DNA from: Candidatus Zhuqueibacterota bacterium
GTDB taxonomy: Bacteria; Zhuqueibacterota; QNDG01; JABMRT01
Length of the DNA stretch: 50,653 nt
Direction: 5' to 3'
NCBI GenBank assembly: GCA_013202295.1
Contig: JABMRT010000137.1
Location: 1 to 50,653 of the forward strand
Position 1 is the stretch's first letter, and each line of letters starts with the position of its first letter. Below are positions 11,431 to 50,505 of this stretch, piece by piece. Under the pieces are notes generated by a model. The model made no database searches. It saw only the letters and a program-made list of their open reading frames with translations, and was not told where the DNA came from. The translations under genes and the position numbers were made by a program.

Positions 11431-12594
11431 ATGATGCGACATCTATTGATAATTTGCCTTGTGGTTCTCTTGGTCTCATCCAGTGCAACTGGAACACCAA
11501 TGACTGGTGGAATTGGGCTGATGTATGTCAAGTCAGCTCAAACACTATCACCCGGATATCTAGACTTCAATACGGGTACACGTTATTTTGGTAAAATTGC
11601 CAGTTTTGGTAGTGATCAAAAAGCATATACACTCTGGACAGTCCGTATATTCTCCTCAATTAATTATGGAATAAATGATCATATTGAATTGGCTATATCT
11701 CCAGTCTTGTATCAAGATACAAATAAAGGGGGCAGTGGTTTTTCTAAAGAGTCAGTCAATTTTCCAGATGATATTCTGCTTTCATTGAAATTTGGATCAT
11801 ATGGTTCATTGGAAAGCCCTTTTCTGTACGGAAGCCAACTATCACTTCAACTGCCAACTGCGCGCAAGCATAACATCATTTATGAGGCTTATTCTGCTGG
11901 GAAGATTGAGGTTGGTTTAACCGGCTTGATTTCTTATTACAGCAATTTAACCTTTCCAAACGAGGGATGGTCCATACACGGGAACATCGGGTATCTCAAT
12001 CATAACGACGTGGGTGTTGACCTTACTGATGATGATGACGATCCTTCCCCCAATGCCATGAGCTCCGAAATTCTTTTTGGCGCAGGTGCTCTTTTCCCGG
12101 CAGGAACCTTTGATTTTTCAGTGGAACTTAATGCGCGTGCATTTCTCAATCATCCTCCGGTAACCGCATATAGCCGGGAATATGTGTCTTATTTGACTCC
12201 TGCAATTTATTATAAACCAGCCCGCTGGATTTCAATAGAATATGCGATGGATCTCCGATTGCTATCCGGTGACGACGTCACAGAGTATTCGACGAATGGA
12301 ACCACTCATTTACCCCCCCCACCCACGGCAAATTTTCCAAATTATCCATCCTGGAGAGGAATTCTTGGTGTAAAAGTGGATATTTTACCCCGTTCTCTTT
12401 ATCATACACAAGAAAAAGCATTTCGTGAAAAAGCAACCGACAGGCGTAGAATACTTGAAAAAATGCTTGATAGTGAAGAGGATACTGAAAGCGCTGAAGA
12501 AGAGCTGGTTCGAATTCAATCTGAACGCCGCAGGGTTGAAGAAGAACTTGAACGTCTCAGAAAGCTATTGGAAGATGAAAAATCTAACAATTGA
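11431..12594 (+). CDS. Outer-membrane beta-barrel protein with C-terminal coiled coil
   Basis: 387 residues. A signal peptide (MMRHLLIICLVVLLVSSSATG) is followed by about 300 residues of amphipathic strands rich in Tyr, Gly and Ser, typical of a transporter-like outer-membrane barrel. The last 55 residues are strongly charged heptads (EKMLDSEEDTESAEEELVRI...VEEELERLRKLLEDE), a coiled coil that would lie in the periplasm. The coiled coil next to a giant TPR protein suggests a partner interaction (inference). ATG at 11434 is an alternative start. It is followed after 35 bases by an intrinsic terminator-like hairpin. Function not recognised. Confidence 0.68.
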   Translation: MMRHLLIICLVVLLVSSSATGTPMTGGIGLMYVKSAQTLSPGYLDFNTGTRYFGKIASFGSDQKAYTLWTVRIFSSINYGINDHIELAISPVLYQDTNKGGSGFSKESVNFPDDILLSLKFGSYGSLESPFLYGSQLSLQLPTARKHNIIYEAYSAGKIEVGLTGLISYYSNLTFPNEGWSIHGNIGYLNHNDVGVDLTDDDDDPSPNAMSSEILFGAGALFPAGTFDFSVELNARAFLNHPPVTAYSREYVSYLTPAIYYKPARWISIEYAMDLRLLSGDDVTEYSTNGTTHLPPPPTANFPNYPSWRGILGVKVDILPRSLYHTQEKAFREKATDRRRILEKMLDSEEDTESAEEELVRIQSERRRVEEELERLRKLLEDEKSNN

Positions 12595-23795: not shown

Positions 23796-24872
23796 ATGAA
23801 AAATAAATCGAATTACATTCTTGTGATTAATCCGGGGTCTACATCCATGAAAGTGGCTGTTTTTCAGAATGATAAGGAATGCACAAGTGAGAGTATTTCG
23901 CATTCAGAAGATGAAATTCGTCAATACGCGCATATCACCGATCAATTTCATTTTCGGTATCAGGTGATCCGCGATTTTTTGGATAAATCAGACTATTCTC
24001 ACATTCAGTTCGATGCTGTGGTGGGTCGGGGAGGCTTGCTCCGGCCAATCCAGGGGGGCACGTACGCGATTAATGAAAAGATGCTGAATGATTTACGATC
24101 CGCAAAACGGGGTGAACATGCCTCAAACTTGGGCGGATTACTTGCACATGAGATGGCTAAATTAGACAAAGTCCCTGCCTATATCGTCGATCCGGTTGTG
24201 GTAGATGAAATGGAGCCTGTGGCCCGTTTAAGCGGTATTCCTGAAATTGAGCGCCGTAGTATCTTCCATGCATTGAATCAGCGTGCTGTGGCGTTTAAAG
24301 CGGCCAAAGAGCTGAATTTGGCGTATGAAGAGGCCAATCTCATCGTGGCGCATCTGGGAGGCGGAATTACCATAGGATGCCATCAGAAGGGGCGTGTGAT
24401 TGATGTGAACAACGGACTGAACGGCGATGGCCCATTTTCACCTGAAAGAGCCGGTGGCCTGCCTGCTGGAGCGCTTGTGGATCTCTGTTTTTCCGGTAAA
24501 ATGACTCAGTCGGAAATCCAAAAGGCGTTGACGGGTCAAGGCGGATTGGTTCGTTATCTGAAAACAAAGGATTTACGTGAGGTGAAAAAGCGCATTAAGA
24601 AAGGAGATGAGCATGCCAAACTGGTGTATGATGCGATGGGATATCAGATTGTCAAGATGATCGGCAGTATGGCGGCTGTGTTGAACGGGAAAGTCGATGC
24701 GGTTGTACTCACTGGCGGGCTTGCCCATGATAATGATCTGGTCGATGAAATCACTGAAGCGTTAGACTGGATCGGTTCTGTGATTGTGTATCCCGGTGAG
24801 CAGGAGATGCAGGCGTTGGCTGAAGGGGCTTTGAGAGTGCTGAGGAGTGAGGAGAAGGTGAAGATTTATTAA
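23796..24872 (+). CDS. buk: Butyrate kinase (second copy)
   Basis: 358 residues, a paralogue of the preceding gene with the same motifs (VINPGSTSMKVAVFQ, DPVVVDEMEPVARLSGIP, VAHLGGGITIGCHQKGRVIDVNN, PFSPERAGGLPAG). The conserved segment LSGIPEIERRSIFHALNQRAVAFK is the textbook butyrate kinase form. It follows the first copy without spacer. Its 3' part (24763-24796, encoding DWIGSVIVYPG) recurs in degenerate form at 25406-25439 and, more weakly, at 28419-28444, so the region behind this gene has been a repeated insertion target. Confidence 0.94.
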   Translation: MKNKSNYILVINPGSTSMKVAVFQNDKECTSESISHSEDEIRQYAHITDQFHFRYQVIRDFLDKSDYSHIQFDAVVGRGGLLRPIQGGTYAINEKMLNDLRSAKRGEHASNLGGLLAHEMAKLDKVPAYIVDPVVVDEMEPVARLSGIPEIERRSIFHALNQRAVAFKAAKELNLAYEEANLIVAHLGGGITIGCHQKGRVIDVNNGLNGDGPFSPERAGGLPAGALVDLCFSGKMTQSEIQKALTGQGGLVRYLKTKDLREVKKRIKKGDEHAKLVYDAMGYQIVKMIGSMAAVLNGKVDAVVLTGGLAHDNDLVDEITEALDWIGSVIVYPGEQEMQALAEGALRVLRSEEKVKIY

Positions 24873-24900
24873 TGCTTATCCAAAAAGAGAGAGGGAAGCC

Positions 24901-25374
24901 ATGAAGAATTTAATCACAGTAATCATTGGAATTGCAATTTTGATGAGCAGTTGCACTCAGGTGGTAGACATCGCTGTTGAAGAAGCAAAGGTCAATACTG
25001 TCATTGATCAATCTACTGAGGTGGTAAAAGCTGAAGATATGGACTTGTTTTCCAAAGTTTTTGCTCAAGACGCTGACATGATCGTTTTCGGTACTGATTC
25101 ACCTGAACGGGCTGTTGGATATGAAGCTTTAAAAGAGTTAGTACAGAAACAGTTTGAAGAAACTGAAAGCACAAAGATTTCCGCAAAGGATCGCATTATC
25201 AAAGTTCACGATTCAGGCCGGGTTGCCTGGTTTTCTGAAGTGATTGATTGGGAAATCGAAGCTGAAGGCCAAACCGTGAAGCTGGAAGGTGTCAGAGGCA
25301 CTGGTATTCTTGAGAATCGAAATGGCAACTGGGTGATTGTGCAGTTGCATTATTCGCTTCCTGCGGGGGGATGA
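24901..25374 (+). CDS. NTF2/SnoaL-like lipoprotein
   Basis: 157 residues with a strong ribosome site (GAGAGGGAAG). MKNLITVIIGIAILMSSCTQ is a lipoprotein leader with lipobox MSSC. The rest reads as a SnoaL/DUF4440-type NTF2 fold: a helix with DMDLFSKVFAQDADMIVFGTD, then SGRVAWFSEVIDWEIE and a final strand NGNWVIVQLHYSLP. Such domains bind small ligands or act as ketosteroid-isomerase-like enzymes; no specific function can be given. It is an insertion candidate, since a degenerate copy of the 3' end of the upstream kinase lies directly behind it. Confidence 0.78.
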   Translation: MKNLITVIIGIAILMSSCTQVVDIAVEEAKVNTVIDQSTEVVKAEDMDLFSKVFAQDADMIVFGTDSPERAVGYEALKELVQKQFEETESTKISAKDRIIKVHDSGRVAWFSEVIDWEIEAEGQTVKLEGVRGTGILENRNGNWVIVQLHYSLPAGG

Positions 25375-25391
25375 ACAGCTCGGTATTTAAC

Positions 25392-25440
25392 CTGGTCGTA
25401 GGTTGTAGACTGGATCGTATTTGTGATTGTGTGTCCCGAG
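25392..25440 (+). pseudogene. Degenerate copy of butyrate kinase 3' segment
   Basis: Bases 25406-25439 match 24763-24796 of the second butyrate kinase at 29 of 34 positions, in the same codon frame (DWI..VIV.P.E). Seven more bases upstream (CTGGTCG at 25392) match 24738-24744 with a deletion between. The similarity stops near 25440. The NTF2-like gene lies between the intact kinase and this remnant. Confidence 0.7.
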
Positions 25441-25442
25441 TG

Positions 25443-25503
25443 CATGTCATTTCCGGACATGATAGATATTCTGTCCAATAGTTATCGGCTATCTAATATA
25501 ACG
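25443..25503 (+). repeat. 61-base repeat, copy A, ending at an integron-type G|TT site
   Basis: About 82% identical to 28449-28509 and about 70% to 27271-27331. All three are 61 bases from ATGTCATTTCC to the G of GTTA. An internal stem GGACA...TGTCC is kept by compensating changes. The right end reads CTAATATAACGTTA, like the R' end of an attC site, and the cassette gene starts 18 bases further on. No convincing R'' partner was found for this copy. Confidence 0.65.
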
Positions 25504-25521
25504 TTATATCACGGTAAAATC

Positions 25522-26055
25522 ATGACAAACTATGTGTATATCGCTCAGAGTTTGGACGGCTTTATTGCCGGCCCCAATGGTGAATTAGATTGGTTGGAAA
25601 ATATCGACAATCCAGAACAAAGTGATTTTGGTTTTTCAGCCTTCATGGGCACAATTGACGCTTTAGTCATGGGTAAAAATACTTTTGAAAAAGTCCTTTC
25701 GTTTGGAATGTGGCCCTATGATAAACCCGTTTTTGTAGCTAGTAGCTCATTATCTGTATTGCCATCAAGCGTTGAAGGAAAAGCATTTTTACTTAAGGGC
25801 ACTCCCAAGGACATGATTACAGGGTTACATAAAAAGGGGTATGCAAACTTATATATAGATGGCGGGGCTGTAATCCAAAACTTTTTAAGAGAAGACTTAA
25901 TCGACGAACTTATAGTTTCAACTATTCCAGTATTGCTTGGTGAAGGTATCCCGTTATTTGGTTATTTGCCGAAGCAAGTACAGCTTAAATTAGTTTGCTC
26001 AGAAGTACTGTTAAATCAGTTGGTAAAAACACGTTATCAAGTAAAGAAGGCATAA
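25522..26055 (+). CDS. Dihydrofolate reductase-family protein (RibD C-terminal domain), cassette gene
   Basis: 177 residues from ATG 25522. An in-frame upstream extension from 25423 runs through the kinase remnant and the 61-base repeat, so it was rejected. YVYIAQSLDGFIAGPNGELDWL opens the reductase fold, DALVMGKNTFEKVL is the nucleotide-side motif and YANLYIDGGAVIQNFLREDLIDELIVSTIPVLLGEGIPLF (in parts YIDGGA, LIDEL, PVLLGEGIPLF) is the RibD_C signature. It is an NADPH-dependent reductase of unknown substrate. The stop codon lies inside the R'' box of the attC site that follows, as is normal for integron cassettes. Confidence 0.83.
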   Translation: MTNYVYIAQSLDGFIAGPNGELDWLENIDNPEQSDFGFSAFMGTIDALVMGKNTFEKVLSFGMWPYDKPVFVASSSLSVLPSSVEGKAFLLKGTPKDMITGLHKKGYANLYIDGGAVIQNFLREDLIDELIVSTIPVLLGEGIPLFGYLPKQVQLKLVCSEVLLNQLVKTRYQVKKA

Positions 26056-26115
26056 CCAATTGTTCCACTGGAACCCCGCAAACAGCGCGGGCCAGTGAAC
26101 GCCATGTTATGTGTA
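26046..26115 (+). repeat. attC recombination site (integron cassette boundary)
   Basis: The site has the full attC architecture. The R'' box GGCATAAC (26048-26055) pairs over its last six bases with R' GTTATGTG (26106-26113). Between them are an unpaired spacer (CAATT against GCCAT), an L''/L' pair GTTC/GAAC with one extra-helical C, then CACTGG/CCAGTG and CCCGC/GCGGG closing on an AAACAG loop. Cleavage would fall between G26106 and T26107. Recognition is by structure; no sequence search was possible. Confidence 0.82.
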
Positions 26116-26145
26116 AAATAATAATCAAATATTTGTAGGGTAGAA

Positions 26146-27225
26146 ATGAATTTAAGAAACACATTGGCAGTCGCGCTCCTATTAGTACTTCTACTAAGCA
26201 ATTTCTCGAAAGCTACCCAAAACAGTTCCTGCAATTTACCCGATTCAATTGACATCTTTATACTCGAAGAGGCAAATCATATTTGGGATGCTTTCGGAAA
26301 AGATATCTGGCAAGGTTTTGATATCGATGATATTTCAATTTTACTTTTCCAGTCTTCTGATCAACAGTGGTTACTAAATCATCCAAATTCACCCGATGAT
26401 TTTCGCAATACAAATTATCTTAACTATTCTATTTCGATTCAATGTTCTGACTGTGAACCATTGTGGAATTACACTTCTGCTACCATATGGCCATTATATG
26501 GCAGTTGGACTACAATTCTGCCTACACATTCGGCGTGGAAATTATTTTGTGAACAACGTCATATACCTGGTTCTATATTCACGCCAGATAAATTGGTCTT
26601 GATATCATTGCACGAACGATTTCACGCGTTTCAGATGCGATGGCTCGAAGAGGACTTCAAGAATTTACTCAAAATCTCTACTTTTAATTCTCCTCCGGAA
26701 TCAAGAGAGGAAATCCTGTTAGATATCTCCGATCAATCTGAGCAGGCTGTTCTTTGTATTAAAGAGCAACAAGCCCTGTTCCAGGCTTATGTTGAGAAAG
26801 ATGCACTGATTTCCCAAAAAGATATTTCAGAATTTTTAAAGTTTAGAAATCAGAGATTAATGCTCATGAATGAGAAGGAAATTGAAACAGAAAATTTTAT
26901 GGAGTTGATTGAAGGAACAGCCCAATATATTGAGTTTCAATTGGCAGAATATCTTCAAAATGGTTATCAATCGCTCGATACTATCAATAATCATCCTGAA
27001 TTTCAAAATTATAAGAATGCAGCAGATTCACCAAACTTATCAATAAATAATGCTAAGAATGGAATATTAGAATCCAGCAGAGTCTACACAACTGGCACGC
27101 TTATGTGTCTTTTAATGGATCGTTATTCTAAAGACAAGTGGCAAATAGAACTATTTAAAAATTACCATGATAACAAAGTAAATCTTAGCAATTTGTTAGC
27201 AAACAGCATAGTGTTAGCACAATAA
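26146..27225 (+). CDS. Secreted zincin-like metallopeptidase (HEXXH), cassette gene
   Basis: 359 residues. MNLRNTLAVALLLVLLLSNFSKA is a Sec signal peptide. HERFH (H156-E-R-F-H160) is a HEXXH zinc site preceded by a hydrophobic strand (DKLVLISL), and ELIEGTAQYIEF about 95 residues later offers the glutamate third ligand (E256-G-x-A-x-Y). That layout is typical of gluzincins; the exact family is not recognised. The gene is AT-rich compared with the flanking operon. Its last codons (VLAQ and stop) fall in a 24-base sequence repeated at 27831, so the 3' end may have been altered by insertion of the next element. Confidence 0.62.
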   Translation: MNLRNTLAVALLLVLLLSNFSKATQNSSCNLPDSIDIFILEEANHIWDAFGKDIWQGFDIDDISILLFQSSDQQWLLNHPNSPDDFRNTNYLNYSISIQCSDCEPLWNYTSATIWPLYGSWTTILPTHSAWKLFCEQRHIPGSIFTPDKLVLISLHERFHAFQMRWLEEDFKNLLKISTFNSPPESREEILLDISDQSEQAVLCIKEQQALFQAYVEKDALISQKDISEFLKFRNQRLMLMNEKEIETENFMELIEGTAQYIEFQLAEYLQNGYQSLDTINNHPEFQNYKNAADSPNLSINNAKNGILESSRVYTTGTLMCLLMDRYSKDKWQIELFKNYHDNKVNLSNLLANSIVLAQ

Positions 27226-27331
27226 AAACTCCTTAATCTCGTTCCAACGCGGAGCATTTGAACGAGGTGATATGTCATTTCCATTCCAGGATGGATGTCC
27301 TGGCCGATAGGTACGGCTATCTAATATTATG
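27214..27331 (+). mobile_element. Gene-less cassette-like segment
   Basis: 118 bases lie between two G|TT sites. Its first 21 bases, together with the three before them (27211-27234), repeat exactly at 27831-27854, where the toxin-antitoxin cassette begins. Its last 61 bases are copy B of the repeat that ends the toxin-antitoxin cassette. In between is a REP-like palindrome with arms CTCGTTC (27238-27244) and GAACGAG (27260-27266). It therefore looks like a toxin-antitoxin cassette that has lost its genes. Confidence 0.55.
27271..27331 (+). repeat. 61-base repeat, copy B, ending at G|TT
   Basis: Same length and ends as the copies at 25443 and 28449, but the centre has diverged and its hairpin is different (CCAGGA...TCCTGG). 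The right end is CTAATATTATGTTAGCAG, and the GNAT cassette starts at the TT. Confidence 0.6.
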
Positions 27332-27352
27332 TTAGCAGTAGGGGCGGTAGTG

Positions 27353-27826
27353 ATGGCATATAAAATACGAGAATACAGAACGGACGATTTGGGCGGCGTT
27401 ATGTCGTCTTGGGAACATGCTAACGAGCTAGCTCATTCCTTCTTGCCTAAAGAGTTTGTGGATAAAGTACGGCACGACATCCCTAATCTGTATTTACCAA
27501 ATGCAGAGACATGGGTGGCTGACTGTAATGGAAGGGTCGTCGGCTTTATTGCCCTGATTGGGAATGAGATCGGGGCAGTGTTTGTCGAGCCGAAGTTCCA
27601 TAGCAAAGGTATCGGTAGGGCGTTAGTGGACAAAGCTCAAGAATTGCGAGGTGAGCTTGAAGTCGAAGTGTTTGAATTGAACGCTATCGGGCGGAAATTC
27701 TATTCCAAGTGTGGCTTCAGGCTTATGAATGAAAAAATACACGAAGATACCGGCAACAAAGTGTTGCGCCTAAAATTGACTGCTAACAAATCGCTCAACG
27801 TGGATCGCGAAGACACGGCCGATTAG
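27353..27826 (+). CDS. GNAT-family N-acetyltransferase, cassette gene
   Basis: 157 residues from ATG 27353; an upstream in-frame ATG at 27329 spans the recombination site and was rejected. The GNAT core is present: VGFIALIGNEIGAVFVEPKF (beta4), then HSKGIGRALVDKAQE, the acetyl-CoA pyrophosphate loop (Q/RxxGxG/A type), and FYSKCGFRLMNEK. The substrate is unknown; small-molecule acetylation is common for such cassette genes. The C-terminal tail TANKSLNVDREDTAD is encoded by the attC site itself, a typical feature of cassette proteins. Its Shine-Dalgarno (GGGGCGG) is weak. Confidence 0.85.
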   Translation: MAYKIREYRTDDLGGVMSSWEHANELAHSFLPKEFVDKVRHDIPNLYLPNAETWVADCNGRVVGFIALIGNEIGAVFVEPKFHSKGIGRALVDKAQELRGELEVEVFELNAIGRKFYSKCGFRLMNEKIHEDTGNKVLRLKLTANKSLNVDREDTAD

Positions 27827-27841
27827 CTCCGTGTTAGCACA
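27778..27841 (+). repeat. attC recombination site of the GNAT cassette
   Basis: R'' ACTGCTAAC (27779-27787) is the exact reverse complement of the nine bases GTTAGCAGT at this cassette's own left end (27331-27339), as expected when a circular cassette has integrated. Inside are AATCGCT and CGTG on the left arm and CACG and AGC on the right arm, followed by CCGTGTTAGC with the G|TT at 27833/27834. Cassette limits are therefore 27332-27833. Confidence 0.82.
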
Positions 27842-27852
27842 ATAAAAACTCC

Positions 27853-27888
27853 TTGACATTATGACGTCATGGCGTTATAATGTGTCAT
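27853..27888 (+). promoter_or_regulatory. Consensus promoter with embedded palindromic operator (toxin-antitoxin)
   Basis: TTGACA (27853-27858), a 17-base spacer and TATAAT (27876-27881) are perfect sigma-70 hexamers. The spacer holds the 10-base palindrome ATGACGTCAT (27861-27870), and a further half-site GTCAT lies at 27884-27888. This is the expected layout for autorepression by a ribbon-helix-helix antitoxin with its toxin. Confidence 0.8.
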
Positions 27889-27918
27889 AGGGTATTTCTT
27901 TATTCAAGGAGAACTATC

Positions 27919-28152
27919 ATGGCAGTTTTGAAGAAAAGAGCAACTATTTATTTCGATCCTGATATCCATCGGGTTCTGAAATTTAAATCCGCATCCACAA
28001 ATAAATCTATATCAGAACTTATTGATATTGCGATAAGATATGAATTGGCTGAAGATGAAGAAGACATTCGAACATTTAAAGAAAGAGAAAAAGAATCTAC
28101 GATATCATTCGAATCTGTTCTGAAGGATTTAAAGGATAATGGAAAAATATAA
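27919..28152 (+). CDS. Ribbon-helix-helix antitoxin (RelB/CopG-like)
   Basis: 77 residues from ATG 27919, which follows AAGGAGAAC; a start at 27880 would lie within the promoter. RATIYFDPDIHRVLKFKSASTNKSISELIDIAIRYEL (in parts RATIYFDPDIHRVL and SISELIDIAIRYEL) is a ribbon-helix-helix DNA-binding fold of the CopG/MetJ type. The charged C-terminal tail (EDEEDIRTFKEREKE...) would bind and block the toxin. It overlaps the toxin start by 14 bases and most likely represses its own promoter through the ATGACGTCAT operator. Confidence 0.88.
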   Translation: MAVLKKRATIYFDPDIHRVLKFKSASTNKSISELIDIAIRYELAEDEEDIRTFKEREKESTISFESVLKDLKDNGKI

Positions 28153-28396
28153 AATTGAATTCATAAAATCTGCTGTAAAAGAACTTAATTCTATCCCTGA
28201 TAAAGACATTAATAAAATCATTAAAAAAATTCAATCATTAGAACAAAATCCAAGACCTGATGGATGTGTTAAACTCACAGGTAAAGAACAATATAGAATT
28301 AGACAGGGACGTTATAGGATATTATATTCTATAGAAGATGATCGATTGATAATTTTTGTAGTAAAAATTGGTCATAGGAAAGATATTTATAGATAA
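28139..28396 (+). CDS. RelE/ParE-superfamily toxin
   Basis: 85 residues, the normal RelE size: YKIEFIKSAVKELNSIPDKDINKIIKKIQSL, then NPRPDGCVKLTGKEQYRIRQGRYRILYSIEDDRLIIFVVKIGHRKDIYR (in parts). The motifs LTGKEQYRIRQGRYRILY and the terminal HRKDIYR carry the Arg, Lys and Tyr residues used for ribosome-dependent mRNA cleavage in RelE. It is made with the upstream antitoxin from an overlapping frame. Such modules are frequent in chromosomal integrons and are thought to stabilise cassette arrays. Confidence 0.9.
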   Translation: MEKYKIEFIKSAVKELNSIPDKDINKIIKKIQSLEQNPRPDGCVKLTGKEQYRIRQGRYRILYSIEDDRLIIFVVKIGHRKDIYR

Positions 28397-28418
28397 TTTT
28401 AATCTTTTTAGGCAACGA

Positions 28419-28444
28419 GATCGCGTCTGTGATTGTCCATTCCG
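28419..28444 (+). pseudogene. Second degenerate butyrate-kinase 3' segment
   Basis: 26 bases match the butyrate kinase segment starting at 24770 at 21 positions, including an exact TCTGTGATTGT. It lies directly behind the RelE toxin and directly before repeat copy C, the same order as at 25392-25503. The match is short, so the call is tentative alone; it gains weight from copy A. Confidence 0.5.
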
Positions 28445-28448
28445 TGTG

Positions 28449-28509
28449 TATGTCATTTCCGGACAGGAGGGATATTCTGTCTGATCGGTAGCGGTTATCT
28501 AATATAATG
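28449..28509 (+). repeat. 61-base repeat, copy C, ending at G|TT
   Basis: About 82% identical to copy A. Internal stem GGACAG...CTGTC; the right end is CTAATATAATGTTATACC. The next cassette begins at T28510 and its first bases match its own R'' box at 30974-30983. Confidence 0.65.
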
Positions 28510-28527
28510 TTATACCCAAGTAAAATT

Positions 28528-30972
28528 ATGCAAAAAAAATTAAAAATAAAGAAGGTGAAGTTTAACAAGGATGACTATGAGGGCTATCAATATGGTCCGC
28601 TAAAAATCGAAAGATATGGTAAAAATATTATTTATTCATCAGATTGGACGCCAGATGAATTTGAAAAACATATAGAAAAAACAAAGAAAGAAAGACCAAA
28701 TCTAAAAATTCAAATTGATCAAAAAGTACAAGAATTAGTAAAAGCATTGAAATCATCAAATATACTTCATGTTTTAACTTCCATTGCCTTTCAAAATATA
28801 TTTTTTAATCCAGAAGTCGATACTGAATCTAGTTTTGAAGGTAATCAAGCATATATTGAGTTTGCTTTGAGCGTTATTACAGCACTGGAAGAGTATTCAT
28901 TTCCTGAGAAAAGCGGAGAATTGTCAGAAAAAGAAACTGACGATGAAGTTGAAGATGGCATAAACGAAAAAATCAAAAATCTAATTAAAGATATTTTAGA
29001 TACTACAATTTGGTATTTCGCTAGTGAGAATGTAGTAAAAAAAGATAGTCGCGAGAAATCAGAAATAAGATATTTATCATTAATGAATTTTTTATTCGTA
29101 CGAGGGGACTCATATAATCAACACAACCTTGAATTGATGAAAGAATTATTCACGCCTCATAATGAATTTTTAAATACACATTTTGGTATAACTATTGATC
29201 AAGTTCTAGTAATAATTAATGATATAGAACAACAGATTGAACAAAATTTAAAAAGGCAAGTCGAACAACTTACTATTTTAAAAAAGATGCATGGATTATA
29301 CATAAAATATGCTGAGGACCCGTCAAACTTTGAAGGGTTAACTTTTGAAGATTTCATGAATAATTATAAACTATTACCAGAAGTGGTTGAATATAAAAAT
29401 GAGTTAGATTTAGCAAGCGAAAATATTAAAAATATACTTTTTGAAATAGATGTTCAAACCAATAAAAAATTCATGGATAACATATCAATTTCACTTGGAG
29501 AAAACAAAGAGTTTTTAAATTTTAAAAAGAGCCCAGGGTGGCCAACTAACAATTCTTTGATTTATCAAAAACCAGTATTACGACATGAAGATAAATATTA
29601 TTGCTTTTGTCCAAAGATACTATCTGAAAACATTAAGCCACTTTTGGAAAGTTGGATACAAGAAAGGGACTCACAATATTTTGACAGGCGTTATCAAAAA
29701 ATTCGTGGAAAATATTTAGAAAATAAAGCGATGGAATATTTAGCGGCCCTATTGCCATCTTCTAATTCATATAAAAATTTGTATTATACTTATGATGAAA
29801 AGGGACAAACCATTCAGGCAGAGTGTGATGGATTAATTATTTATGATAGCAATATTTTAATTGTGGAGATGAAATCATCTCCTTTATCATTATCTGCAAA
29901 AAGAGGAGGTCTAACCTCACTAAAAGAGAATTTAGATGAAATTATTGATTCAGCTTATTCACAAGCGATGCGAACAAGAGATTATATATTTAATACAGAT
30001 GCTCCGGTATTTCGAAATGATAAAGGCGAAATTGAGTTTGAAATTAATGATAAAAACAAATACACCAATTTTTATATTATAAATGTCACACTTGCAAATC
30101 TATCGCCGATTTCATCAAATTTATACTCATTAAAGAATATAAATCTTCTGAAAGAAAGAGAATGGCCTTGGACAATATTTATAAACGATTTGAGAGTGAT
30201 TTCAGAAATTTTAGAAAATGAAACAGTTTTTTTGCTTTATTTAAGTCGAAGAATTCAGGCGAATGAGTTTCCTCAATTTCATGCTTTTGATGAACTTGAT
30301 TTTTTAATGTATTTTTTAAGTGTTGGTCTATATTTCACAGACAATGACTTTCAAGACGTTGATAAATTTATACCAAGAGGTTATACTGAAGATCTAGACA
30401 ATTACTATTTTTTTCTTGAAGGGAAAAGAAGCCATTTTGATAAGCCAAAGTTAAATGTTGATAATCGTATTATTGAACTAATTCGAGAAATTGAATCCGG
30501 AAGAAAATTTGGTTTTTCTGAGATAACTATGATCTTATTGGGATTGTGTAATGAGTCTCATCAAGAATTTTTAGATGCCCTTTCCAAGCAAATTACAAAG
30601 TCCCAATCAGATAAGAAAGACCATGATTTTTCGCTTATACTTAATGACTTTGGTTTAACAACTATAATTACTCATGATATGAACAGAGTTTATCCGAATG
30701 AAGTGGATAGTTATTGTAATTTGAAAATGTATCAAACTAAATATGACACATGGTATTGCCTTGTGGTTGATATTTCTAGCTTTCCACTAAAGACATATAA
30801 GCATAAAAGTATTAACACTACATGGAAATATGATAGTGAATTGGAAAGTAGATTAAAAGAAAAAAAAGAGAAAATACTCAGGCAAGTAAAGTCTCTGAAT
30901 ATGAAAATTGGAAGGAATGATTTGTGTCCATGTTATAGTGGAATTAAATATAAGTTCTGTTGTGGAAAATGA
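28528..30972 (+). CDS. Large PD-(D/E)XK-like nuclease protein with C-terminal SEC-C motif, cassette gene
   Basis: 814 residues from ATG 28528; an ATG at 28507 spans the recombination point and is rejected. Three regions can be seen: a helical N-terminal half (about 1-390, with charged coiled-coil stretches); a restriction-endonuclease-like core in which D434 (ECDGLIIYD) and E447-x-K449 (ILIVEMKSS) have the PD-(D/E)XK spacing, preceded by a Glu-containing helix KYLENKAMEYLAALLP; and a zinc-binding SEC-C end (GRNDLCPCYSGIKYKFCCGK). The DNA is very AT-rich, unlike the flanking operon, which points to recent transfer. Related architectures occur in phage-defence islands, so an anti-phage role is a reasonable guess, not shown. 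Confidence 0.6.
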   Translation: MQKKLKIKKVKFNKDDYEGYQYGPLKIERYGKNIIYSSDWTPDEFEKHIEKTKKERPNLKIQIDQKVQELVKALKSSNILHVLTSIAFQNIFFNPEVDTESSFEGNQAYIEFALSVITALEEYSFPEKSGELSEKETDDEVEDGINEKIKNLIKDILDTTIWYFASENVVKKDSREKSEIRYLSLMNFLFVRGDSYNQHNLELMKELFTPHNEFLNTHFGITIDQVLVIINDIEQQIEQNLKRQVEQLTILKKMHGLYIKYAEDPSNFEGLTFEDFMNNYKLLPEVVEYKNELDLASENIKNILFEIDVQTNKKFMDNISISLGENKEFLNFKKSPGWPTNNSLIYQKPVLRHEDKYYCFCPKILSENIKPLLESWIQERDSQYFDRRYQKIRGKYLENKAMEYLAALLPSSNSYKNLYYTYDEKGQTIQAECDGLIIYDSNILIVEMKSSPLSLSAKRGGLTSLKENLDEIIDSAYSQAMRTRDYIFNTDAPVFRNDKGEIEFEINDKNKYTNFYIINVTLANLSPISSNLYSLKNINLLKEREWPWTIFINDLRVISEILENETVFLLYLSRRIQANEFPQFHAFDELDFLMYFLSVGLYFTDNDFQDVDKFIPRGYTEDLDNYYFFLEGKRSHFDKPKLNVDNRIIELIREIESGRKFGFSEITMILLGLCNESHQEFLDALSKQITKSQSDKKDHDFSLILNDFGLTTIITHDMNRVYPNEVDSYCNLKMYQTKYDTWYCLVVDISSFPLKTYKHKSINTTWKYDSELESRLKEKKEKILRQVKSLNMKIGRNDLCPCYSGIKYKFCCGK

Positions 30973-30973
30973 A

Positions 30974-31076
30974 TGGGTATAACCCACTTGATTGTCCAGG
31001 GGGTGTGCCCCTGGGCGCAAAGAAAAGGAGGGCTAAGCCCTCCAACATAATCCGTCCCGGGGCAGAACCCCAGGAC
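30974..31076 (+). repeat. attC left half plus three palindromes (end of cassette array)
   Basis: R'' TGGGTATAAC (30974-30983) is the exact complement of the left end of the SEC-C cassette (GTTATACCCA, 28509-28518). A stem CCAGGGG/CCCCTGG (30996-31014) follows where the attC hairpin should be, but no GTTA R' box is present, so the site looks truncated. Two further palindromes follow: GGAGGGC/GCCCTCC (31027-31043) and GTCC-GGGG/CCCC-GGAC (31054-31076). These resemble dispersed intergenic palindromes. The acyltransferase gene starts 22 bases later. Confidence 0.65.
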
Positions 31077-31098
31077 GATACAATAAAGGCTTTTTCCC

Positions 31099-32043
31099 AT
31101 GCAACAAATAAAAAAACTTGAAGATCTGGTTCAGGCGGTTAAAAAGAACCAATCCATGACGCTTGCGGTAGCGGCCGGAGAAGATCCCGCAACGATTGAA
31201 GCGATCGCGAAATGTGTTGAAGATGATCTGCTGCGTGTCATCCTGATCGGCAGCGCAGAAAAGGTCGAGGCCATTGCCAAATCGCACAGTGAAGCGTTCG
31301 CGGGTGAGGTTGAAATTGTTCATAGCGAAGACGAAAAGGATGCCGCGCAAAGGGCGGTTCAGCTTGTTCGCAACGGCAAAGCGGGCTTGTTGATGAAGGG
31401 GCTGTTAAGCACCGCCACATTCATGAAAGCAATCCTGGATAAGGAATTCGGTCTGGTGCCGCCCGGTGGATTGCTCACCCATGTCGCGGTCATGGAAGTG
31501 CCCACTTATCCCAAATTACTCATTGTTTCTGACGCGGGAATTATTCCCAATCCCACCATGGATGAAAAGGTCACCATCCTGAATCATACAATCAGGATCG
31601 CGCATCAGTTGGGCAATGCGAATCCCAAAGCCGCGTTGATTTCAGCGGCTGAAAAAATCAACTTCCGGCTGCAATCTTCCATTGACGCCGCAGTGATCAA
31701 GGCCATGGCTGAGCGCAAACAGATCAGGGGTGCGATTGTAGACGGCCCGCTGGCGTTGGATGTCTCACTTTCTCCTGAACATTGCCGGATCAAAGGATTG
31801 GAAAGCCCAATTGACGGCCAGGCCGATATTTTAATTTTCCCCAACATTGAAACCGCAAACACTTTTTATAAAAGCGCCATAATTCTTGCGCATGGCCAAA
31901 GCGCCTCGATTGTGGCGGGGTCGTCCGCGCCGATTGTGCTTTCCTCCCGCGCGGATGACGATGATACCAAATTCTACTCGATTGTTCTCGCCGCGTATCT
32001 GGCGTCGCAGGGCAATCAAATCGAGGATGCGTCCATTGACTAA
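31099..32043 (+). CDS. ptb: Phosphate butyryltransferase (first copy)
   Basis: 314 residues of the Ptb/Pta family: KAGLLMKGLLSTATFMKAIL, LLTHVAVMEVPTYPKLLIVSDAGIIPNPTM (in parts) and AIVDGPLALDVSLSPE are diagnostic. It converts acyl-CoA and phosphate to acyl-phosphate, the substrate of butyrate kinase, so it completes the por/ior-buk route although the cassette array now separates it from the kinases. The stop overlaps the proposed cobO start by eight bases. Confidence 0.93.
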   Translation: MQQIKKLEDLVQAVKKNQSMTLAVAAGEDPATIEAIAKCVEDDLLRVILIGSAEKVEAIAKSHSEAFAGEVEIVHSEDEKDAAQRAVQLVRNGKAGLLMKGLLSTATFMKAILDKEFGLVPPGGLLTHVAVMEVPTYPKLLIVSDAGIIPNPTMDEKVTILNHTIRIAHQLGNANPKAALISAAEKINFRLQSSIDAAVIKAMAERKQIRGAIVDGPLALDVSLSPEHCRIKGLESPIDGQADILIFPNIETANTFYKSAIILAHGQSASIVAGSSAPIVLSSRADDDDTKFYSIVLAAYLASQGNQIEDASID

Positions 32044-46246: not shown

Positions 46247-47521
46247 ATGATTTATATGGATAAAATTGTTATCCTTGGGGGGAAAAACCTCAAAGGTGTT
46301 GTCGAGATTAGCGGTTCCAAGAACGCTGTGCTGCCCATTATGGCGTGTGCTCTCCTGGCCGAGGGTCAATATCATTTGAAAAGTGTCCCTCATTTGCGTG
46401 ATGTGCGAACGATGGTCAAACTTCTAAATTCCATTGGCTTAACCGTCCAATTCAACGAAAATGAAGTTCATATTGAATCAGGGCATGTTGCGCATTACGA
46501 AGCTCCTTATGATCTTGTGAAAACAATGCGCGCTTCTATTTATGTGCTGGGGCCGATGCTGAGCCGCTTTGGTGAAGCCAAAGTTTCTCTGCCTGGAGGA
46601 TGTGCATGGGGTCCGCGTCCCGTGAATCTTCATATTCAGGGATTGGAACAGCTTGGCGCGAAAATCACTATCGAAAATGGATACATTCATGCGAAAGCCA
46701 AACGGTTGAAGGGTGCCCGTATCCTTTTTAACATGCCGAGCGTGGGTGCCACAGGCAATCTGCTTATGGCTGCTGTGCTGGCCAAAGGGACGACCGTCCT
46801 AGAAAATGCTGCCCAGGAACCTGAGATTACGGCCCTGGCTGAATTTCTGGTGCAAATGGGCGCGAGGATTGATGGTATCGGCACATCCCATTTGGAAATT
46901 GAAGGCGTGGATAGTTTGCGTCCCGCGAGTACAGCCATTATCCCGGATCGGATTGAGGCCGGCACTTTTCTCGCGGTTGGACATATCGTGGGCGGAGATA
47001 TTCTGATCAAAAATGTGATTCCCGATCATGTGAGTAAAATCACGGAAAAGTTGATTGAGGCCGGAGCAGAAATTACTGAGGATTCGGACCAGATCCACAT
47101 CAAATCGAATGGTGTTTCCAAGCCTGTAGATATTGCGACGGCTGTGTTTCCGGGATTTCCGACCGATATGCAAGCGCAATGGATGGCGCTTATGAGCACG
47201 GCAAAGGGTTCCTCCGTAATCACAGAAAATATTTATTTAGATCGCTTTACACATGTGGCTGAATTGCAGCGTCTGGGTGCTGATATCCGGCTAGATCACA
47301 ATGTTGCTTTGGTCAAGGGTGTAAAAAACCTAAATGGTGCGCCTGTGATGTCTACGGATCTTCGGGCCAGCGCTTCCCTGATTATGGCAGGTCTGATCGC
47401 CAAGGGCCGTACTGATATTTCACGCGTGTATCACATTGATCGTGGGTATGAGCAGATTGAGGCGAAGTTGAAGAATCTTGGTGCTGAGATCTGGCGTGAA
47501 AAAGAACCCCTTGTGACGTAA
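46247..47521 (+). CDS. murA: UDP-N-acetylglucosamine 1-carboxyvinyltransferase
   Basis: 424 residues; ATG 46256 (MDKIVILGG) is an equally good start. ISGSKNAVLPIMACALL is the substrate-binding Lys-Asn motif, LPGGCAWGPRPVNLHIQGLEQLGA holds the active-site Cys (in parts GGCAWGPRPVNLH), and FPTDMQAQWMAL the catalytic Asp region. It starts peptidoglycan synthesis and is the fosfomycin target. The end (WREKEPLVT) is repeated in diverged form after the vapBC genes at 48184-48234. Confidence 0.96.
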   Translation: MIYMDKIVILGGKNLKGVVEISGSKNAVLPIMACALLAEGQYHLKSVPHLRDVRTMVKLLNSIGLTVQFNENEVHIESGHVAHYEAPYDLVKTMRASIYVLGPMLSRFGEAKVSLPGGCAWGPRPVNLHIQGLEQLGAKITIENGYIHAKAKRLKGARILFNMPSVGATGNLLMAAVLAKGTTVLENAAQEPEITALAEFLVQMGARIDGIGTSHLEIEGVDSLRPASTAIIPDRIEAGTFLAVGHIVGGDILIKNVIPDHVSKITEKLIEAGAEITEDSDQIHIKSNGVSKPVDIATAVFPGFPTDMQAQWMALMSTAKGSSVITENIYLDRFTHVAELQRLGADIRLDHNVALVKGVKNLNGAPVMSTDLRASASLIMAGLIAKGRTDISRVYHIDRGYEQIEAKLKNLGAEIWREKEPLVT

Positions 47522-48187: not shown

Positions 48188-48234
48188 AATTAGGAACCAA
48201 GAATTGGCGTGAAAAAGAGCCATTGGTGATATAA
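48184..48234 (+). pseudogene. Diverged second copy of the murA 3' end
   Basis: Reads LELGTKNWREKEPLVI and stop, against LKNLGAEIWREKEPLVT at the murA end. The last 30 bases match at 24 positions with 14 identical in a row, and three differences fall in REKEPLV codons without changing the amino acid. No upstream part of murA is present. This tail lies immediately behind vapC. Confidence 0.8.
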
Positions 48235-48340: not shown

Positions 48341-49072
48341 ATGAGGTTGCATTTGAAAAAAGCTATTGGCTTTCTATTGATTCTACTTACAATTTTATCT
48401 TCCTGCGCGATTAATCGAATCAGCGACAAAAAAACTGTGATTACGCTTGATAAGGGCACAACTGAAAACCCTGTGACGATTTCGCTGACCCATGGCCCTC
48501 ATTGGTCTCACAAGTTAAAACCGGGACCTTTCGTTATTCATATCTATCCTCAAGTCGTGTTTTGGCTTGAAAACGATGCGGGCGATTTTATTGAAACGTT
48601 GTATATTTCAGGCGCAAATGGTCATTATGGGAACAACTCTACCAAAAGAAAATTGGATGATAAATTCTTTAGTATGTGTTTTCCTGTCTGGGCGGGTAAA
48701 CTCAAACAAGTGAATCAACCGCTCCCGACCTCCAGTAATCCCTACACTGACGCAGTCACGACCGCCACTCCGCAAGGTGATTTTGATTTAAAATTGAATT
48801 TGGGTGAAATCCCTGATTCATTTAAGATTCTATTTGAGATCAATAAATCGAGTGATTATAACGCGGTTTACACCAAAGATAACAGCGACTGGGTCGGCCA
48901 GCCTTCTGTTGTTTATGCGGTTGAAATTTGCGATATTAAGTCTGACTCGACTTATTATTTCGAGCCGGTCGGGCATGGTTCAAGAATCTCCGATAAACCT
49001 GAATTTGTCGAGGGGTTTGAGGGTGTTGATTCGGCGCTTGAGTTGGTGGAAGAGATTAGGGTGGTGTTTTAA
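48341..49072 (+). CDS. Lipoprotein of unknown function
   Basis: 243 residues from ATG 48341, preceded by AAGGTGAAAA; an earlier in-frame start at 48236 would translate the palindromic repeat and is rejected. MRLHLKKAIGFLLILLTILSSC is a lipoprotein leader with lipobox LSSC. The rest is a single beta-rich domain (FVIHIYPQVVFWLENDAGDFIETLYISG, in parts; WAGKLKQVNQPLPTSSNPYTDAVTTATP; VEICDIKSDSTYYFEPVGHGS) resembling DUF2271/flagellin-like periplasmic proteins, not firmly assigned. Its 3' end recurs at 49682-49762. Confidence 0.7.
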   Translation: MRLHLKKAIGFLLILLTILSSCAINRISDKKTVITLDKGTTENPVTISLTHGPHWSHKLKPGPFVIHIYPQVVFWLENDAGDFIETLYISGANGHYGNNSTKRKLDDKFFSMCFPVWAGKLKQVNQPLPTSSNPYTDAVTTATPQGDFDLKLNLGEIPDSFKILFEINKSSDYNAVYTKDNSDWVGQPSVVYAVEICDIKSDSTYYFEPVGHGSRISDKPEFVEGFEGVDSALELVEEIRVVF

Positions 49073-49681: not shown

Positions 49682-49762
49682 AATGCCTGAGTTTGTTGAA
49701 GGGTTTGAGGGTATTGATTCGGAACTTGAGTTGGTGGAGGGAATTAGCATAATATTCGAATG
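49682..49762 (+). pseudogene. Diverged second copy of the lipoprotein 3' end
   Basis: Reads PEFVEGFEGIDSELELVEGI and continues to a stop, against PEFVEGFEGVDSALELVEEIRVVF at the end of the intact lipoprotein (48998-49072). Many differences are at third codon positions, so this was coding sequence when it diverged. No other part of that gene is found here. The DUF4258/YgiT genes lie between the two copies. Confidence 0.82.
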
Positions 49763-49864: not shown

Positions 49865-49889
49865 CGTTCCCAGGCAGAGCCTGGGAACG
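49865..49889 (+). repeat. REP palindrome 3 (left of transposase)
   Basis: Perfect arms CGTTCCCAGGC and GCCTGGGAACG around AGA. It is identical to 50462-50486, in the same orientation, on the other side of the transposase gene. Confidence 0.85.
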
Positions 49890-49915
49890 AGAATGTAAAA
49901 TAAAGGAGTCGTAAA

Positions 49916-50449
49916 ATAGCCAGAAGTCGGTATAAAATACTCACAGATGAAAACCGACCCTATTTTCTGACATGTTCAGTTATAAATTGGATTCCATTAT
50001 TTGGAATACCTGAGATAGCCAATCTTATCCTGGAATCTCTGAAATTCATGATCGACGAGAAACGAATTTTCCTGCATGGATATATCATCATGGAGAATCA
50101 CCTTCATATGATCGCATCAAGTGTGAACCTCTCAAAAGAAATCGGTCATTTTAAATCCTATACAGCAAGAGTCATTATTGACTTCCTCAAAGAAAACCAT
50201 TATCATGATATGTTGAAAGAATTGGCATTCTTGAAGAAAGAACACAAGCGCGATCAGACATACCAGGTATGGCAGGAGGGATCTCATCCTCAGATGATTG
50301 TCGATGAGAAAATGTTAGAGCAGAAAATGAATTATATGCATTGCAATCCTGTGCAGAAGGGGTATGTAGAAGATCCGGAGCATTGGCGATATTCGAGCTA
50401 TAGAGATTATTTAGGGCAGAAGGGATTGCTGCCCATTACAATGATTTAA
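49916..50449 (+). CDS. REP-associated tyrosine transposase (RAYT, Y1 family)
   Basis: 177 residues if read from ATA 49916. An AAAGGAG ribosome site stands seven bases before that ATA, and the protein then begins ARSRYKILTDENRPYFLTCS, which is the family's normal N terminus, so the start seems to have changed from ATG to ATA; the first in-frame ATG (50048) would remove 44 conserved residues. HUH-type motif is ENHLHMIAS (HxH), the probable catalytic Tyr lies in FKSYTARVI, and NPVQKGYVEDPEHWRYSSYRDY is the family's C-terminal block. Flanked by identical REP palindromes, its presumed substrates. Confidence 0.85.
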   Translation: MARSRYKILTDENRPYFLTCSVINWIPLFGIPEIANLILESLKFMIDEKRIFLHGYIIMENHLHMIASSVNLSKEIGHFKSYTARVIIDFLKENHYHDMLKELAFLKKEHKRDQTYQVWQEGSHPQMIVDEKMLEQKMNYMHCNPVQKGYVEDPEHWRYSSYRDYLGQKGLLPITMI

Positions 50450-50461
50450 TTTGGAATTAAG

Positions 50462-50486
50462 CGTTCCCAGGCAGAGCCTGGGAACG
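50462..50486 (+). repeat. REP palindrome 4 (right of transposase)
   Basis: Identical to REP 3 at 49865-49889, including the following AG. It lies 12 bases after the transposase stop and 20 bases before dnaE. Confidence 0.85.
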
Positions 50487-50505
50487 AGGGTAAAATTGGT
50501 TTAAC

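Follow-up and report, generated by a model that had tools for sequence, protein, structure and literature searches.

A 34-base piece of a second butyrate kinase gene, buk2, has been copied downstream of that gene, and the copy makes up the left-hand part of a longer repeat, which we call D2. Both lie in the window, the whole stretch of 50,653 nucleotides that was analyzed, on contig C119 of a draft genome of 303 contigs. Copies 1 and 3 of D2 (25413 to 25529 and 28419 to 28535) stand in an island, 24873 to 31098, between buk2 and the phosphate butyryltransferase gene ptb. We think it fairly probable that this island is an integron-type cassette array without a local integrase (CALIN-like), and that D2 is an attI-like junction that was fused once to the buk2 scrap and then multiplied.

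A copied piece of buk2

The buk2 gene (23796 to 24872; plus strand, like ptb and all the island features given below) was identified with TIGR02707 (542.7 bits; cut-off, 289), and the buk2 genes of relatives align there. Bases 25406 to 25439 are identical to bases 24763 to 24796 of the kinase at 29 of 34 positions, exactly as the original prediction had it. The local alignment of this scrap with buk2 scored 51, against a maximum of 36 for 1,000 dinucleotide-preserving shuffles. When the segment from 25390 to 25450 was compared by BLAST with its own 5.1-Mb genome, the sole significant second match was 24763 to 24795 (E = 4.1e-5), and the next-best match had an E value of 0.95. When 643 gene tails from about 600 kb of stretches of the genome were each compared with the 1.8 kb downstream, the reversed-sequence control peaked at 35, and the kinase scrap stood above all. 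The shuffle scores, the genome-wide E value and the control peak together establish that the copy is real. The genome's own buk2 was clearly the closest kinase to the scrap, with the kinase tails of other species scoring at most 31. This places the origin of the scrap in this lineage and points to a relic of the lineage's own buk2; import from the kinase of another species was ruled out by the same comparison.

It is very improbable that the likeness to the kinase is a coincidence and that D2 is unrelated to buk2. Such a reading draws on the nature of the match, just 34 nt without a coding signature and found by a search for such matches. It is opposed by the E value, by the distance of 610 bases between the copy and its source segment and by a score above all 643 controls. 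It is opposed as well by 26 nt that can be compared in buk2, copy 1 and copy 3: at all four mismatches of copy 1 with the kinase, copy 3 also has a base other than that of copy 1, and twice this is the kinase base.

The copied segment is internal to the kinase tail, covering bases -110 to -74 counted from the gene end, and it lacks the final 76 nt of the gene. Second codon positions account for four of the five differences from buk2, and third positions for one, small numbers in both cases.

Two other gene ends are copied elsewhere in the window. The end of murA, including its stop codon (47487 to 47521), recurs at 48200 to 48234 behind a VapBC-like pair (27 of 35 positions identical), and the end of a lipoprotein gene (48998 to 49059) recurs at 49686 to 49747 behind a small two-gene cargo resembling a toxin-antitoxin module (53 of 62). 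Third codon positions hold 5 of the 8 differences in the murA copy, as if it had come from another murA allele, and 6 of 9 in the lipoprotein copy.

In both, as in the kinase case, part of the upstream gene recurs on the far side of a small cargo. On a displaced-tail account, a homologous kinase tail arrived on foreign DNA and recombined into buk2, so that the former tail ended up beyond the cargo; events of this kind may have taken place at murA and the lipoprotein gene. Most of the displaced tail would later have been lost, and the remainder would have multiplied as part of D2. The position of the copy behind a one-gene cargo and the two further arrangements of gene, cargo and tail copy in the window favor this account, which we nevertheless regard as unlikely. 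The murA and lipoprotein copies extend to the gene end or almost to it, differ mainly at third positions and look like pieces of coding alleles, whereas the scrap has neither an extension to the gene end nor coding-allele-like differences and looks like a noncoding relic, small as these numbers are. Also against a displaced tail, an identical junction of scrap and D2 core recurs behind a RelE toxin gene. With no third-position bias and with the last 76 nt of the gene missing, the kinase scrap is probably the product of a different process, and the earlier view that it shares one with the two toxin-antitoxin cases is not supported.

An island between buk2 and ptb

Among 29 kinase loci of relatives, 23 have ptb following buk2 at a distance of at most about 60 bp. 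Within the same family or order, ptb adjoins buk2 at 9 of 10 loci, and the tenth stops at a contig end; at the remaining related loci, ptb lies several hundred bases off or was not found in the stretch compared. Here the two genes are 6.2 kb apart. Given the adjacency in relatives, we read 24873 to 31098 as an inserted island, and this comparison of loci indicates that an insertion separated buk2 from ptb. An insertion behind buk2 had been proposed, and the comparison bears this out; the inserted unit, thought to be a single NTF2-like gene, proved to be an island of many genes. The related suggestion that cargo need not be toxin-antitoxin modules was well founded. No recombination sites marking the island ends or the origin of the NTF2-like gene were defined, and none of the comparison strains holds an intermediate stage of the island. 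Known plasmid or phage DNA was rejected as its source, the only match being one of 65% between the reductase gene and a single plasmid.

The first gene of the island encodes an NTF2/SnoaL-like lipoprotein (24901 to 25374; PF13474, E = 2.5e-21) and is followed by the scrap and D2 copy 1. A RibD_C/dihydrofolate-reductase-like gene, a putative cassette (25522 to 26055; PF01872, E = 8e-15), comes next and ends at an attC-like site of 63 nt with the boxes GCATAAC and GTTATGT (26050 to 26112). At the two best RibD-like genes of relatives, no attC was found nearby, and cassette status was rejected there. Beyond the attC-like site is a 359-amino-acid open reading frame (ORF) without a Pfam or NCBIfam match (26146 to 27225), whose last codons lie within the junction GTG↓TTAGCACAATAA, the arrow marking the putative point of joining here and below. 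This ORF terminates inside a 24-nt exact direct repeat (27211 to 27234; family D17), as a truncated cassette would, and the repeat, which is identical to 27831 to 27854, can be understood as a cassette start common to both places. The core of D2, without the scrap, follows as copy 2 (about 27264 to 27337) and leads into a GNAT acetyltransferase gene, another putative cassette (27329 to 27826; PF13508, E = 6e-15), with an attC-like site of 59 nt (27781 to 27839) whose boxes, TGCTAAC and GTTAGCA, match at 7 of 7 positions. A toxin-antitoxin pair (27880 to 28396) comprises an antitoxin gene (27880 to 28152) and a RelE/ParE-type toxin gene (28139 to 28396; PF05016, E = 9e-13), with a 12/12 consensus promoter at 27853. 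D2 copy 3, which includes the scrap, precedes the last putative cassette, a gene for an 821-amino-acid SEC-C protein (28507 to 30972; PF02810, E = 6e-5). Five bases 3' of its stop codon is an R''-like box, GTATAAC (30977 to 30983), half of an attC site, which exactly complements GTTATAC at 28509. The right flank is ptb itself (31099 to 32043; PF01515, E = 3e-43).

The island also contains a diverged REP-like hairpin sequence (27240 to 27266), which is 78% identical to the REP flanking a RAYT (REP-associated tyrosine transposase) gene elsewhere in the window (family D5). That gene, at 50048 to 50449 within 49865 to 50488, stands between two identical 27-nt REP sequences and scored 69.7 bits against NF047646, under the cut-off of 80.

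The junction repeat D2

Copies 1 and 3 of D2 are 78% identical over 117 nt, and copy 2, aligned at 27272 to 27334, had been overlooked in the original prediction. Each of the three ends at G↓TTA immediately 5' of a gene, the core ends being G25503↓TTA, G27331↓TTAGCA and G28509↓TTA, and their shared end, GGyTATCTAATATwAyG↓TTA, gave three matches against 0.04 expected by chance. The join between kinase scrap and core falls at an identical point in copies 1 and 3, which is most simply explained by one fusion that was later duplicated. The weaker buk2 match behind RelE (28419 to 28444) was confirmed as a match, with a score of 33 that 2 of 1,000 shuffles equaled. It belongs to D2 copy 3 and so does not argue for another kinase site; the idea that the RelE module had once sat behind a butyrate kinase is not supported.

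No copies of D2 were found outside contig C119 in its own genome, in 81 further genomes from the phylum or in viral contigs. A pattern scan of GTDB genomes with the D2 end motif gave no match, and one with an inner D2 stretch gave two chance-like matches in unrelated metagenome-assembled genomes. A dispersed genomic repeat was ruled out by the absence of D2 from the rest of the genome and the 81 phylum genomes. A canonical attC was rejected because D2 has no complementary box pair and the fold z scores of copies 1 and 3 are near 0; copy 2 gave z = -2.8, but with the REP hairpin in front included. A core consisting of decayed kinase end was rejected as well, since the alignment stops at the junction and the core is, by eye, unlike the last 76 nt of buk2.

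D2 does contain small hairpins (GGACAG with CTGTCC, and GATAG with CTATC), in which one stem pair is altered on both sides between copies. These could mark D2 as one end of an unrecognized nonautonomous mobile element with hairpins near that end. Such an element would have acquired neighboring host DNA and been amplified in place, and the cassettes would have arrived independently; the strictly local multiplication of D2 would agree with this. We consider such an element quite unlikely, in view of the absence of D2 and its end pattern from the genomes just named, of whole-D2 fold energies that in copies 1 and 3 do not improve on those of shuffled sequence, and of the termination of all D2 copies exactly at a cassette start.

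We propose instead, from the sequence, that D2 is a delta-attI-like junction with a fused buk2 scrap. The proposal draws on its receptor position before a cassette start box in three instances, on the resemblance of its end to other junctions and on the existence of cassettes that end in a piece of attI. The D2 end TAATATAATG↓TTATAC resembles the TAATACTATG↓TTA junctions that this genome has on contigs C8, C248 and C249, and the delta-attI2 end AATAAAATGTTRRRY (PMC12901181) resembles the end of D2 copy 3, AATATAATGTTATAC. The likeness to these junctions and to the delta-attI2 consensus extends over only about 11 to 20 nt, and as the attI of the genome's own integrase is not defined, an attI-like nature of D2 is suggested by a short resemblance.

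Integron-like features and known cassette systems

The search for attC-like sites used a simple script that included no calibrated model (not IntegronFinder). The site at 26050 to 26112 had the lowest energy per base among the attC candidates of the window (z = -3.4 on the bottom strand), and the site at 27781 to 27839 combined perfect boxes with a weak inner fold (z about -0.9). Known attC sites range from 57 to 142 nt (PMC2727003). A CALIN calls for at least two attC sites of such length with complementary R'' and R' boxes and a folded bottom strand, and these two sites have those features, the second being weakly folded and both being judged without a calibrated attC model. No R' partner was found for the half attC at 30977 to 30983.

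The start box of a cassette complements the R'' of its own attC. This complementarity is complete, at 7 of 7 positions, for the GNAT cassette (start, 27331; R'', 27781) and for the SEC-C cassette (start, 28509; R'', 30977), and reaches only 5 of 7 for the reductase; the C248 and C249 arrays show it too. Each such heptamer is expected about three times per 50 kb by chance, so it is the position at the gene end that counts.

An intact integron integrase gene is encoded on contig C8 (450.8 bits; cut-off, 265), and 7 of the 12 genomes of the order have integron integrases above the cut-off. Contig C119 has no integrase match, and none adjoins the island; on sequence grounds, this agrees with the CALIN arrangement of an integrase elsewhere in the genome and none nearby.

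Other cassette-like loci are present in the genome. On C8 (locus L020, 10936 to 12918), the integrase gene is followed by an ORF of 117 amino acids in the same direction, an attC-like site (12287 to 12412; boxes 7/7) and, where the contig ends, a cassette start; this may be an integron whose integrase gene is inverted. Contigs C248 (L030, 1 to 1120) and C249 (L031, 1 to 3700), both read on the minus strand, hold two cassette arrays without an integrase match, in which the first cassette follows a near-identical GGGTATATAATACTATG↓TTAT; these precassette sequences are possibly copies of one attI-like site. C249 also has a full attC-like site of 112 nt.

A CALIN is a cluster of attC sites without a local integrase (PMC12444791). 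As in a CALIN, at least two attC-like sites lie on a chromosome together with short accessory genes such as those for GNAT, the reductase and the toxin-antitoxin pair, and the integrase is encoded elsewhere in the genome. Unlike a CALIN, its junctions alternate attC-like sites with the non-attC D2, which carries a piece of the neighboring host gene. Cassettes can insert at chromosomal attG sites, according to the account of Loot et al. 2024 given in PMC12444791. In delta-attI-type cassettes of class 1 and 2 integrons, the attC is replaced by a piece of attI ending in GTTRRRY, and cassettes that end in an attI piece are recombined by IntI1 (PMC12901181). D2 differs from these in including 30 nt of buk2, in being present three times in one array and in a derivation from the genome's own attI that is only putative.

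We infer that an integron integrase built the island. In the explanation that we favor, circular cassettes would have been inserted at G↓TT by the integrase that C8 encodes. D2, a non-attC junction with the attI-like end TAATATAATG↓TTA, would have been the receptor in front of each of three cassettes (RibD-like, GNAT and SEC-C) and would form the 3' end of the units preceding them, a delta-attI-type arrangement. The 34-nt scrap of buk2 would have joined the D2 core one time and been carried along as D2 multiplied. Counting against this explanation are the lack of an integrase beside the island, the incomplete box match of the reductase, the weak inner fold at 27781, the island ends without defining recombination sites, the short resemblance behind an attI-like D2, the uncalibrated attC search and the lack of an intermediate among the comparison strains. 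A broader reading, which we advance as a speculative one, is that recombination of the integron type, acting at a site in the chromosome, took in a scrap of the neighboring host gene and the fused sequence became a new, multiplied receptor or junction site, that is, the birth from host DNA of a cassette-end site used by at least three cassettes.

The kinase case is removed as evidence for one general process of gene-tail duplication shared with the toxin-antitoxin insertions, and the three tail copies are best kept apart unless further evidence unites them. The locus bears instead on the origin of attI-like and other non-attC cassette ends. It shows side by side a piece of the parent gene, three junction copies, two of which carry that piece, and, by comparison with relatives, the empty site, which could let the steps be reconstructed.
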